The notes under the pieces: generated by a model
The model's database searches: none
What the model was told of the DNA's origin: nothing
The model's input: only the letters and a program-made list of their open reading frames with translations
Source of the DNA: Thermococcus celer Vu 13 = JCM 8558
GTDB lineage: Archaea; Methanobacteriota_B; Thermococci; Thermococcales; Thermococcaceae
Assembly (NCBI RefSeq): GCF_002214365.1
Contig: NZ_CP014854.1
Coordinates: forward strand, 1,785,092 to 1,849,091
Reading direction: 5' to 3'
Length of the DNA: 64,000 nucleotides
In this document: positions 54,312-58,700 of the stretch, piece after piece
How the letters are laid out: every line of letters starts with the position of its first letter
Numbering within the stretch: the first letter of the stretch is position 1
Program-made: the position numbers and the translations under genes

Positions 54312-54995
54312 TCAGCGTTCCATCTTCCTGACGCCGTCTTTGGTACCAACGAGAACCACGTCGGCTATGTCGGCGAAGATGCCGTTCTCGACGACTCCGG
54401 GGATATTGTTGAGCTCTATCTCGAGGTCGAGCGGGTCGTCTATGCGGTGGAACCTCGCGTCGAGGATGAAGTTACCGTTGTCCGTAACGACGGGCCCGTC
54501 CTTTTTACTCGCCATCCTGAGTTCCGCCTCGGCGTTGAAGACCTCTATCTCCTCGGCTATGGCACGCCATGCCGCCGGAATCACCTCTATGGGAACGGGC
54601 ATCCTCTGGCCGAGTCTCTCGACGAGCTTGCCCTCGTCAACGAGGACGAGGAAAGTCCCGGCGCGGTACTCGATTATCTTCTCCATGGTGAGGGCGGCGC
54701 CACGCCCCTTTATGAGGTTCATCTGCGGGTCAACCTCGTCGGCCCCGTCAACCGCTATGTCTATCGCGTCGACCTCGTCCAGTCCAACCACGGGGATGCC
54801 GTTCTCAATGGCGAGGAGCCTCGACTGATGGGACGTCGGAACTCCGTAGACGTCCTCGAGCTCCCCCTCCATGATGAGCTTGCCGAGGTACTCGATGAAG
54901 TACGCGGTGGTGGAACCCGTGCCGAGGCCCACCACCATGTCGTCCTCGATGAACTTTAATGCCTCCCGGGCAACCGCCCTCTTCAGTTCCTCCAT
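54312..54995 (-). CDS. rpiA: Ribose-5-phosphate isomerase A
   Basis: A 227-residue enzyme interconverting ribose-5-phosphate and ribulose-5-phosphate. GLGTGSTTAYFIEYLG (about 23-38) binds phosphate, DIAVDGADEVDPQMNLIKGRGAA (about 79-101) holds the catalytic Asp and Lys, and LVDEGKLVERLG follows. In archaea it supplies ribose from the ribulose monophosphate route. GGGGTGATCCC precedes ATG 54995. It follows a small membrane protein gene by four bases. Confidence 0.95.
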   Translation of the reverse strand: MEELKRAVAREALKFIEDDMVVGLGTGSTTAYFIEYLGKLIMEGELEDVYGVPTSHQSRLLAIENGIPVVGLDEVDAIDIAVDGADEVDPQMNLIKGRGAALTMEKIIEYRAGTFLVLVDEGKLVERLGQRMPVPIEVIPAAWRAIAEEIEVFNAEAELRMASKKDGPVVTDNGNFILDARFHRIDDPLDLEIELNNIPGVVENGIFADIADVVLVGTKDGVRKMER

Positions 54996-54999
54996 GGGA

Positions 55000-55344
55000 T
55001 CACCCCGTCACCGTCCCGTTATGAGCGAGCTGATAGAGCAGGCTCTGATTCGAGTAGAACTCGGGCTGGAAGTTGATCATAGCGGTGTAACCGAGCATGG
55101 CGAAGTAGAGCCAGAACATGAACCATCCCCAGAACGCTTTCTTAAGTATCTGGCGCTCGTCCTCGATCTCTGGGGGGAGTTCCTTTATGATGGCCATGAC
55201 GAACTTGTCGGTGACCAGGAACATGGCGAACCCTATCAGCCAGCCATACTGAACGTAAGAGGAGGCGACCCCACTAACTAAGCCACAGATGAGCCCCCAC
55301 AGATAGACCGAGAGTGAAAACTTATTCTCAAGTGTCAGCTCCAC
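55000..55344 (-). CDS. Small membrane protein, about 3 segments
   Basis: A 114-residue protein with about three hydrophobic helices (SVYLWGLICGLVSGVAS, WLIGFAMFLVTDKFVMA, FWGWFMFWLYFAMLGYTAM) and a conserved-looking charged loop ELPPEIEDERQ. The size and layout resemble archaeal EMC6-like insertase subunits, but I cannot show homology. GGTGAAGAAC is the ribosome site for GTG 55344; the frame to 55353 covers it. Four bases separate its stop from rpiA. Confidence 0.6.
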   Translation of the reverse strand: MELTLENKFSLSVYLWGLICGLVSGVASSYVQYGWLIGFAMFLVTDKFVMAIIKELPPEIEDERQILKKAFWGWFMFWLYFAMLGYTAMINFQPEFYSNQSLLYQLAHNGTVTG

Positions 55345-55393
55345 GTTCTTCACCTACGCTTAGCTTTAAAAAGACCTTTTTAAAACCTTTCCG

Positions 55394-56728
55394 TTATTCC
55401 GACAGCGTCTCCAGGAACCGCCTGCCCTTCTCTGTCAGCCGGTAGTAGATGCGCCTGCCCTTCCTGTGGGATTCCTCTATCAGGCCAAGGCTCTCAAGCT
55501 CGCGGAGGTGCTGGTAAACCGCCTGGTACTTGAGGGGCTTCTCAAGGGCCTCCCATATCTCGTAGCCGTACATGACCCTCTCGCCAAGGAGCCTGAGTAT
55601 ATCGAGCTTCGTCCCGCCCACGCTGAACCTCTCCCGCGCTTCGGAGTAGTGCCCCTTGAGGCCCGAGCTCGTCGCGATGAGCGCTATCCTGTCGTCCCGC
55701 TCGAAGTAACCCTCCTCCGCCAGCTTGAGAAGGGCCGGCACTACAACCGCCGAGGCGTACTCCGCGAAGACCCCCTCGCCTGCGAGGAGCCTCTGCCCGA
55801 GGTCGAGCTCGTCCTCGCCGACCATCACCGCGGTTCCACCGCTCTCGCGTATGGCCTCAAGCGCGAGCTCCTTCATCACCGGGTTCTTCACGTATAGCCC
55901 CAGCGCCTTCGTCGGCTCGACCCTCGGCTCGACGCCCAGAACCTCGCTCGCTATTGGCGAGCACCTCTCGGCCTGCACCGCCACGAGCCTGGGGATCTCC
56001 TCAATAACGCCGATCTCCCTCAGCTCGACGAAGCCCTTGTAGATGCCGTAGAGGTTGCTCCCGCTCCCCGTTGGAACCAGAACGTGGGTCGGGTTCAGCT
56101 CCTCCCAGAGCTCGAAGGCAAGGGTTTTCTGTCCCTCAAGGCCGATGAGGTTGCTCTCGGGGGTGACGTTGTAGAGCCCCTTTCCATCGGCGAGACCCTC
56201 TGCGTAGCTTATACCCTCATCGACGCTCTCACCGTAGCGTATAAGTTTGGCGCCGAAGGCCACTATCTGGTTCAGCTTCCCCTGTTCGACCAGCTTCGGG
56301 ACGACGGCGTAGGCGGGCCTCCCGGCCCGCGCGGCGTACGCAGCCAGAGACGCGGCGGCGTTTCCGTTGCTCGCCACGACGAAACCGTTCCGGGCGTGGG
56401 ACAGGCCGTAGGAGACCGCCACCGTGGTGAGCCTGTCGCGGAAGGAGCCGGTCGGGTTACGGGTCTCGTCCTTTATGAAGACGTTAAACCCCAGCTCCTC
56501 GCCGAGCTTTGCCCTCAGGAGGGGCGTTCCACCCTCCTTCAGGCTGATGATCTGCTCCACGCCCGGGAGGAGCTCGCGGTACCTCCAGACGCCCGGCTTT
56601 CTCTTCCTCCAGGGGGAAACGTCCACGGATTCGTAGTCGTAGCTTACCTTTAGAGGCTCACCGCAGGAGCAGGTTGGGGGGATAATTGAAGAATAGAGCC
56701 TCCCGCAGGAGGGACAGCGAACCTTCAT
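55394..56728 (-). CDS. Threonine-synthase-like protein with Arg in place of the PLP Lys, fused to a PadR-like winged helix
   Basis: A 444-residue protein. Residues 5-22 form a CPSC...CSC zinc-type N-terminus and 60-365 the PLP-dependent threonine synthase fold (KDETRNPTGSF, ASNGNAAASLAAYA, PTGSGSNLYG). The invariant lysine of the NPTGSFKDR motif is Arg97 (codon CGC, 56438-56440), so it cannot form the usual PLP Schiff base. Residues about 375-444 form a winged helix of PadR/ArsR type (VMYGYEIWEAL, VYQHLRELESLGLIEE, RRIYYRLTEKG). It is usually annotated as threonine synthase (thrC), but this copy looks like a ligand-sensing DNA-binding protein. GAGTGAGTTAG precedes ATG 56728. Confidence 0.75.
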   Translation of the reverse strand: MKVRCPSCGRLYSSIIPPTCSCGEPLKVSYDYESVDVSPWRKRKPGVWRYRELLPGVEQIISLKEGGTPLLRAKLGEELGFNVFIKDETRNPTGSFRDRLTTVAVSYGLSHARNGFVVASNGNAAASLAAYAARAGRPAYAVVPKLVEQGKLNQIVAFGAKLIRYGESVDEGISYAEGLADGKGLYNVTPESNLIGLEGQKTLAFELWEELNPTHVLVPTGSGSNLYGIYKGFVELREIGVIEEIPRLVAVQAERCSPIASEVLGVEPRVEPTKALGLYVKNPVMKELALEAIRESGGTAVMVGEDELDLGQRLLAGEGVFAEYASAVVVPALLKLAEEGYFERDDRIALIATSSGLKGHYSEARERFSVGGTKLDILRLLGERVMYGYEIWEALEKPLKYQAVYQHLRELESLGLIEESHRKGRRIYYRLTEKGRRFLETLSE

Positions 56729-56743
56729 CTAACTCACTCTCGA

Positions 56744-58690
56744 CTACTTGAGCCTTATCGCGTCGAGGTTGTTCGGGGCCCTCGTCGAGATGCCGAACTT
56801 CTTGTGGATGCTCGTCGAGAGGTCGAGGCACTTGTGGGGCTCTCCGTGGACGGTTATGACCCTCTCAGGCCTCGGCCTCAGGCGGGCGATGTAGCTGATG
56901 AGCTCCCTCCTGTCGGCGTGGCCAGAGAAGCCGTCTATGGTGTGGATCTCCATGTTCACGTTGACGACCTCCGTCTTTCCGTCCTCCCCGACGAGTGGAA
57001 TCTCCCTGAGGCCCCTCTGAACCTGCCTTCCGAGCGTTCCCTCAGCCTGGTAGCTGACGAATATCATGCTGTTCTTCGGGTCGGAGGCGAGTTGCTTGAA
57101 GTACTCCACGCTTGGCCCACCGACGAGCATACCAGAGGTGGCTATGATTATCGCGGGTTCGCCGGAGTCTATGATGTCCTGCCTCTCCCTGCTGTTGGCG
57201 ACGGGCTTGAAAATCGGGTTCAGGAAGGGGTTGTAGCCCTCGTGGAATATCTGCTCGCGCAGGCCCCTGCTGAGGTACTCCGGATAGGCCGTGTGTATCG
57301 CGGTGGCCTCCCAGATCATTCCGTCGAGGTATATCGGAACCTCCAGGCCACCGACGCGGGCGTACTCCTCGAGGACCATCATTATCTCCTGCGACCTGCC
57401 GACGGCCATCGCCGGAATCAGGACCTTTCCTCCGCGCCGTATCGTCTGGTGAATGACCTCTATGAGCCTCTTCTCCGCCTCCTCGCGCGGCATCTGGTAG
57501 TCGTTGCTTCCACCGTAGGTGGACTCCATCACGAGGGTCTCGAGGCGCGGGAACCTGCTCACCGCCGGCTCGAAGAGCCTCGTCGGGATGAACTTGAAGT
57601 CGCCTGTTATGGCTATGTTGTGGAGCCCGTTGCCTATGTGGAGGTGGACTATCGCGGAGCCGAGGATATGGCCCGCGTTGTGGAGGGTTAACCTTATGTC
57701 CGGGGCGATGTCGCGAACCTCGCCGTAGTCAAGGGTTATCGTGTGCTTTATTACCTCCTTGATGTCCCGCGGCCGATATAGAGGTTCCACGCCGTTCATC
57801 TTCTGTATCTCGATGAAGTCCTGCTGGAGGAGAACCATGAGATCCCTCGTGGGAGGCGTGGTGTATATCGGCCCGTCGAAGAGCTTGTAGCGGAACAAGT
57901 AGGGGAGCATCCCGCTGTGGTCGAGGTGGGCGTGGGTTACTATGATGGCATCGAGCAGGCCGGCGTCGAGGACGTAGCGGAACTCCGGGGCATCGAAGTG
58001 TGGAAACGCCTTCTTGGGGTCGCGGAGGGCGGCCACGTTGACGCCGAAGTCAACGAGAACATAGCTCTCGTTGGTCTGAACGAGGAGAGAACTCCTCCCG
58101 ACCTCACGGAAACCGCCGAGGCCGGTTATCCTGATCCACTCACTCTTCACCTCTGGCTTACGGTATATGTTCCTCCCGACCTGCCTGAGGAACTTCCTGC
58201 GGTCCCTGGCCTCAGCCTGGAGAACCTGCCTTATGGAGTATATGGTCTGGCTCTGAAGTGGGGGCGTTCTCACGACTCCGGGGGCCCAGTGAACCCGCTG
58301 GGTTATGAGGCGTAAAGTTTCACCGTTCTTCCCTATTACGAGTCCCGGCTTTCTCGCCTCTATCAGAACCTCCCCAACGGACGGATCAAAGCTTACGTTG
58401 GTTATCTCGGCCTCCTTGGGCACGAGCTCCTTTATCATTTCCTCGGCTTTTTCTGGGGGGAGGAGAACCTCCGGGTCGGGGCGAACGCTGATGCGCTTCT
58501 TGAGAACCTTGGCGAGGTTCCGTATCAGATCCCCGTCCCCCATTATCGCTTCGGGGTTCTTGACGTATATGACGAGTTCGGGTCCTTCAAACTCAACTTC
58601 GGTTATCCTCGCCTCCCTTGGAACCATCTGACTTATAACTGCCTGTATGTCCCGCAGTATCTTGTCAACTGAGGTTTCTCTCCTTATCAA
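56744..58690 (-). CDS. fttA: Transcription termination/RNA-cleaving factor FttA (aCPSF1)
   Basis: A 648-residue archaeal CPSF73 homologue that cleaves nascent RNA and ends transcription. It has two N-terminal KH-type domains (about 1-145, with GLVIGKNGETL), then a metallo-beta-lactamase core (THAHLDHSGMLP, about 243-254; AGHILGSA; GDFKF) and a beta-CASP domain with SGHADRREL and the final GEPHKC. GAGGTG overlaps the psmB stop and fits TTG 58690. The alternative GTG 58699 lies inside that ribosome site, although Pyrococcus homologues have a few more residues. Confidence 0.93.
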   Translation of the reverse strand: MIRRETSVDKILRDIQAVISQMVPREARITEVEFEGPELVIYVKNPEAIMGDGDLIRNLAKVLKKRISVRPDPEVLLPPEKAEEMIKELVPKEAEITNVSFDPSVGEVLIEARKPGLVIGKNGETLRLITQRVHWAPGVVRTPPLQSQTIYSIRQVLQAEARDRRKFLRQVGRNIYRKPEVKSEWIRITGLGGFREVGRSSLLVQTNESYVLVDFGVNVAALRDPKKAFPHFDAPEFRYVLDAGLLDAIIVTHAHLDHSGMLPYLFRYKLFDGPIYTTPPTRDLMVLLQQDFIEIQKMNGVEPLYRPRDIKEVIKHTITLDYGEVRDIAPDIRLTLHNAGHILGSAIVHLHIGNGLHNIAITGDFKFIPTRLFEPAVSRFPRLETLVMESTYGGSNDYQMPREEAEKRLIEVIHQTIRRGGKVLIPAMAVGRSQEIMMVLEEYARVGGLEVPIYLDGMIWEATAIHTAYPEYLSRGLREQIFHEGYNPFLNPIFKPVANSRERQDIIDSGEPAIIIATSGMLVGGPSVEYFKQLASDPKNSMIFVSYQAEGTLGRQVQRGLREIPLVGEDGKTEVVNVNMEIHTIDGFSGHADRRELISYIARLRPRPERVITVHGEPHKCLDLSTSIHKKFGISTRAPNNLDAIRLK

Positions 58691-58700
58691 AGCCACCACC

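Follow-up and report, generated by a model that had tools for sequence, protein, structure and literature searches.

The gene at positions 55394-56728 (minus strand) of the window, the 64,000-nucleotide stretch of DNA that was analyzed, likely encodes a one-component transcription factor acting as a PLP-responsive repressor of B6 synthesis and uptake; PLP binding and repression were inferred. The product joins a threonine synthase fold lacking the Schiff-base lysine to a C-terminal winged helix, and a palindrome at the promoters of pdxS and of a PF07155 transporter gene, hereafter the S gene, was present in the genomes that keep the regulator and lost with it.

The reading frame was open, began with ATG and encoded 444 amino acids. 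A PALP domain of fold type II, the putative sensor, covered residues 61-353 (55670..56548, minus strand; PF00291, E 7e-67) and was recovered by Pfam, AlphaFold2 and Foldseek. The PadR-like winged helix occupied residues 372-443 (55400..55615, minus strand); its Pfam match to PF03551 (residues 377-440, E 3e-10) scored 40.3 bits and passed the cut-off of 27. When an alignment of 34 relatives was supplied to AlphaFold2, the model had a mean pLDDT of 89.5, with a folded winged helix (pLDDT approximately 80) and a disordered, flexible linker at residues 359-370 (55619..55654, minus strand; pLDDT below 50). The nearest solved structures were threonine synthases (6nmx, 2d1f, 1v7c and 2zsj; Foldseek E about 7e-30 to 1e-29, 30-36% identity), and NCBIfam named the protein "threonine synthase" (PRK05638, 746 bits). 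The fusion of this fold to a PadR-like winged helix, as claimed in the original prediction, was thus upheld by Pfam and AlphaFold2, and the domain architecture was shown by computation.

Several short elements were conserved among the fused proteins. An N-terminal, zinc-ribbon-like Cys4 motif (C5-C8...C20-C22; 56663..56716, minus strand) was invariant in 34 aligned fused proteins. Within the sensor domain, the SNGN loop at residues 120-123 (56360..56371, minus strand) was equivalent to the threonine synthase Ser/Asn loop, with G122 and N123 invariant; the GSGSN loop that binds the PLP phosphate (residues 221-225; 56054..56068, minus strand) was kept in the alignment; and Thr353 (55670..55672, minus strand), corresponding to the Thr/Ser that binds PLP N1, was kept in at least 90% of the aligned fused proteins. 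The DNA-recognition helix was predicted from the alignment and the AlphaFold2 model at residues 401-413 (YQAVYQHLRELES; 55490..55528, minus strand), in which Q402, Q406, H407 and L411 were invariant in the 34 aligned fused proteins from two phyla.

The PLP-anchoring lysine was replaced by Arg97 in the motif NPTGSFRDR (residues 91-99). Its codon, CGC at 56438..56440 of the minus strand (GCG on the plus strand), was confirmed by direct reading. The fused set comprised 114 distinct proteins, drawn from Thermococci and from another archaeal phylum; 113 of them had a residue other than Lys at this position (Arg in 106, Tyr in 3, Phe, Met, Ile and Leu in 1 each), and only 1 had Lys. Unfused relatives had Lys in 23 cases, plus Lys in L003 with a differing motif; the sole unfused row with Arg was a fused gene truncated at a contig end. 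The constant feature of the fused family is therefore the loss of Lys and not Arg as such, and the expected co-occurrence with the winged helix held in this wider form, for a non-Lys residue. The fused proteins with Tyr, Phe, Leu, Ile or Met at the lysine position were L185-L187, L189, L329, L330 and L378.

The fused gene was found in about 67 of 94 Thermococcaceae genomes. Every full-length Thermococcaceae orthologue that was read, with one exception, had Arg, encoded by AGG, AGA or CGN; conservation through several Arg codons ruled out a sequencing error or an isolated mutation. Arg was also present in four proteins, at approximately 40-45% identity, that belong to a different family in this class. 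When the DNA pattern for NPTGSFRDR was run over 396 archaeal genomes, 70 matches were obtained; apart from a single match in a different phylum, they were orthologues from this same class. The order of that match held approximately 25 fused proteins, and when 398 genomes of this second phylum were sampled, about 50 more were found, picked by score and not by Arg. Orthologues with Lys had been named as an observation that would refute the regulator reading, and they did exist in two genomes of one genus: a full-length copy in G002 (AAA; L045 / L105) and a fragment in G003 (AAG; L052). A third member of the genus, G001 (L049), had Arg (AGG), and the Lys copy was nested among Arg lineages on the tree, where a local reversion is the simplest and likely reading. 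The Lys-bearing copy still carried the winged helix and its genome still had the operators. A family defined by lysine loss with one lineage that appears to have regained Lys offers a natural test of whether losing the covalent bond to PLP makes a sensor.

The genome that holds the window (G000; 1.87 Mb, one contig) contained three further relatives of the PLP fold, all with Lys and none with a winged helix: L002 (NPTWSFKDR), L003 (QPTGSFKDR; PRK08329, 541 bits) and L004 (NPTGTHKDR; PRK06381). A separate lysine-containing ThrC, whose presence would support the original prediction, was thereby accounted for at the level of sequence. In Thermus threonine synthase, N154, S155 and R160 hold the phosphate of the substrate, O-phosphohomoserine. 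The aligned residues were Thr/Glu/Gly in the fused protein; L002 kept Asn, Ser and Arg (INSDNPFRVEG), which makes it a better ThrC candidate than the fused protein and probably the true ThrC of this genome, as inferred from sequence alone. L002 (G000:1083885-1084943) also had Trp in place of the usual Gly ahead of SFK. Of the features of a threonine synthase, the fused protein thus retained the fold type II PALP domain but had neither the Schiff-base lysine nor the residues that hold the substrate phosphate, and it is not expected to function as a threonine synthase. The warning that a threonine synthase annotation would mislead was supported by these replacements and by the Lys paralogues; the PRK05638 label, carried by many archaeal genomes, is likely wrong in this sense, and the present reading corrects it.

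A link to the threonine pathway was tried and rejected. Homoserine dehydrogenase was present in 92 of 94 Thermococcaceae genomes and thrB, above cut-off, in 35 of 94, and the presence of neither tracked the regulator. Despite homoserine dehydrogenase and ThrC-like genes, no thrB above cut-off was found in G000 or in 59 of the 94 genomes overall; possibly homoserine kinase has been replaced by another enzyme, or threonine is imported.

In Thermococcaceae, the palindrome TCAAGTTTTAACTTGA abutted the TATA box of pdxS and of the S gene, and it was found only in genomes keeping the regulator, with one exception (G052). Upstream of the S gene, regulator-plus genomes had TCAAGTTTTAACTTGA or TAAAGTTATAACTTGA. 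At pdxS the palindrome followed the TATA box, about 40-50 bp ahead of the gene, and matched at 13-16 of 16 positions in all 19 regulator-plus genomes examined. By contrast, the TATA box was kept and the palindrome gone in 11 regulator-minus genomes, where the 8-10 matches were at the level of shuffled sequence. G052 had the pdxS operator and no detected regulator; this genome was only 73% complete, and its regulator may be unassembled. At the S gene, 11-16 matches were obtained in 29 of 32 regulator-plus genomes, compared with 9-10 in 10 regulator-minus genomes; no clear site was seen in the remaining three of the 32 (G012, G068 and G028). In G000 itself, TCAAGTTTTTCCTTGA and GCAAGTCAAAACTTGA lay ahead of pdxS-pdxT (L296) and TAAAGTCCAAACTTGA at the S gene (L279).

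The site was exclusive to these two genes. The exact 14-bp core CAAGTTTTAACTTG occurred 21 times in 47 whole genomes, 9 times at pdxS and 12 times at the S gene, with zero copies elsewhere in those genomes and zero in 15 regulator-minus genomes; approximately 0.35 copies were expected by chance at equal base frequencies. When 16 one-mismatch sites elsewhere were inspected for further regulon members, most lay within unrelated coding sequence. No operator-like palindrome of the TCAAGTTTTAACTTGA type that would suggest autoregulation was seen near the regulator gene in the window. Computation, without binding data, showed that the operator lies at pdxS and the S gene and that it is lost when the regulator is. 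Related genomes inflate the p-values in these comparisons and incomplete genomes blur absence calls; the regulator label changed at least 4 times on the PdxS tree, giving few independent co-losses.

The S gene encodes an ECF S component, assigned in G000 to PF07155 with an E-value of 2e-39. This family includes the B6 carriers PdxU and PdxU2/HmpT (PMC9997740). By sequence, the sole PDB relative of two archaeal S components was chain S of 4HZU, which is HmpT and is reported to carry pyridoxamine (PMC4860826). Among the substrate residues of HmpT, His84 was Lys in all archaeal S components and Glu41 was Asp or Glu. Uptake of a B6 vitamer is the likely role of the S component, as judged by its family and the operator it has in common with pdxS; the substrate was inferred. 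Among Thermococcaceae genomes at least 90% complete, a strong PF07155 gene was present in 52 of 52 with the regulator versus 12 of 23 without it (p 3e-7). In approximately half of the Thermococcaceae without a regulator, the S gene was present without an operator and lay close behind an upstream gene (L249-L252, L256, L258, L263, L273, L276 and L278).

The same pairing was observed in the second phylum, where a PF07155 gene lay just downstream of the fused gene in 29 of approximately 41 loci. In the first order examined it was immediately downstream in 15 of 21 loci, followed by a fused EcfA pair and EcfT genes, and among more distant loci it was next or next but one downstream in 14 of 20. 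A palindrome of the type TTAAAG-N4-AACTTTA was found between the regulator and the S gene in all 15 loci of the first order, and stretches of equal length upstream of the regulator gave only background matches. TAGTATAGTTATAACTATACTA and similar sites were present between the two genes in most of the 14 more distant loci, and TATACAAGTATTTTCTTGTATA stood upstream of the S gene in a second family of Thermococci. The core common to these lineages was AGTT-N2-AACT (or AAG-N6-CTT), and most sites overlapped or touched the TATA box on either side. In the second-phylum order, PdxS was absent from 23 of the 25 genomes that carry the fused gene, compared with 74 of the 172 that do not (p 2e-6); a transporter supplying B6 to auxotrophs would produce such a pattern. 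Within Thermococcaceae alone, the presence of the regulator and of PdxS was not significantly associated (p 0.16).

A mechanism can be proposed in which the fused protein is the operator binder, although this binding, dimerization, the PLP ligand, repression and transport of B6 by the S component were all only inferred. The sensor domain retains the loops for the PLP ring and phosphate (N123, GSGSN 221-225 and T353), and when PLP is plentiful it would be bound noncovalently, with no Schiff base. A dimer would then place its two winged helices on the palindrome, with core AAGTTTTAACTT or AGTTATAACT, over or abutting the TATA box. This would block transcription of the S gene and, in genomes that have PLP synthase, of pdxS-pdxT, and a drop in PLP would release the operator. 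Repression was chosen as the sign solely because the operator sits at the TATA box. The original prediction had proposed a regulator sensing PLP, threonine, O-phosphohomoserine or a related metabolite; the regulator was supported, and the ligand could be narrowed by inference to PLP or another B6 vitamer because of the context of pdxS and the PdxU/HmpT family and because the substrate-phosphate residues were replaced.

The predicted circuit resembles that of bacterial PdxR, a member of the MocR subfamily of GntR regulators, which regulates pdxST, pdxK and pdxU (PMC5320631). Both combine a sensor derived from a PLP enzyme with a winged helix, and both regulons comprise PLP synthase and a PF07155 B6 transporter, that of the fused protein being predicted from the operator. 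However, MocR proteins are bacterial and have a sensor of fold type I (aminotransferase) behind an N-terminal GntR winged helix, whereas the fused protein is archaeal, of fold type II (threonine synthase), has a C-terminal PadR-like winged helix and lacks the Schiff-base lysine. Because it departs from MocR in its sensor fold, in the order of its domains, in the family of its winged helix and in the domain of life, the fused protein is not a member of that subfamily, and the earlier comparison with MocR/GabR on a different PLP fold held as a parallel. With ThrC it has in common a homologous fold, the PLP loops and the N-terminal Cys4 motif seen in archaeal paralogues, but the PLP lysine is missing, the substrate-phosphate residues are replaced and the winged helix is added. 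The winged helix is that of PadR-like regulators (PF03551), here a C-terminal addition to an enzyme fold. The predicted target gene is in the family of HmpT/PdxU (PF07155), but the archaeal copies have Lys for His84 and an inferred substrate.

A bolder reading, which we favor by a narrow margin, is that these proteins form a regulator family of fold-type-II PLP pseudoenzymes in at least two archaeal phyla, in which loss of Lys produced a reversible PLP sensor; they would be an archaeal counterpart of PdxR of independent origin and would point to the system by which many archaea take up B6. The literature searched, which did not cover most subscription papers, contained no description of a PLP regulator in archaea and none that treats this fusion as a regulator. 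If the reading is true, this is an archaeal PLP-responsive transcription factor on fold type II, a kind not found described in that literature, and two unrelated PLP folds have been recruited to one control circuit. The PF07155 gene offers a specific candidate for the uptake of B6 vitamers by archaea, whose B6 transporters are described as mostly unknown (PMC9997740).

The closest rival to PLP repression keeps the same B6 genes and changes either the ligand, to pyridoxal, pyridoxine phosphate or pyridoxamine phosphate, or the sign, so that the apo form activates and PLP turns it off. This remains possible, since the presence of an operator at these two genes depends on neither ligand nor sign, and apo-PdxR of bacteria activates pdxST with PLP as anti-activator (PMC5320631). 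Operators on or directly beside the TATA box nevertheless fit blocking better than activation, and the kept GSGSN phosphate loop favors a phosphorylated vitamer. It is unlikely that the fused protein regulates threonine or homoserine metabolism by sensing threonine or O-phosphohomoserine. Its threonine synthase ancestry would suit such a role, as would several distant genomes in which a Lys-containing thrC and the fused gene form a head-to-head pair, with homoserine dehydrogenase alongside. Against it, the operator in G000 and its relatives marks pdxS and the S gene rather than thr genes, the equivalents of N154/S155/R160 are Thr/Glu/Gly, thrB presence does not track the regulator, and most thrC-linked fused copies also have the S gene downstream. 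Because of the head-to-head thrC in some distant genomes, a connection to threonine is still conceivable in that branch.

That another transcription factor binds the operator, with a different role for the fused protein, cannot be excluded by binding data, as there are none for the fused protein, but it appears unlikely: operator and regulator were lost together, the regulator adjoins the operator and the S gene in the second phylum, and Q402, Q406 and H407 are invariant in 34 aligned proteins. The least credible alternative is a working threonine synthase, or another PLP enzyme that dispenses with the lysine, carrying an autoregulatory domain. The whole fold and the PLP loops are kept and the curated name is "threonine synthase"; however, Lys is replaced by Arg, Tyr, Phe, Leu, Ile or Met among the fused proteins, the substrate residues are replaced, and G000 has separate Lys paralogues, of which L002 keeps N, S and R. 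A repressor responding to PLP remains the preferred reading.

The gene neighbors of the fused gene in Thermococcaceae were housekeeping genes (proteasome beta, a beta-CASP/KH nuclease, a small membrane protein and rpiA), and those in sister lineages were aminopropyltransferase, arginine decarboxylase, phosphoribosyltransferase and GINS-MCM genes; no consistent function emerged from either set. At 54312-58699 of the window, the regulator gene lies between the beta-CASP/KH nuclease gene (15 bp gap) and the small membrane-protein gene, which is followed by rpiA. Ribose 5-phosphate is a substrate of PdxS; the rpiA linkage was limited to part of the family. A search of plasmids returned only distant relatives, below 60% identity. 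The fused gene was divergent from or near a Lys-containing thrC at L382, L385, L388 and L390, and also at L386, L394 and L396, and three of these loci also had a homoserine dehydrogenase gene nearby; the arrangement may be a relic of a tandem thrC duplication from which the fused gene arose. In six distant genomes, an AIR-synthase/PurM-like gene (PF00586/PF02769) followed the S component (L389:4468-5550, L380, L387, L391, L393 and L397), and its product could be a kinase of B6 or of another vitamin.
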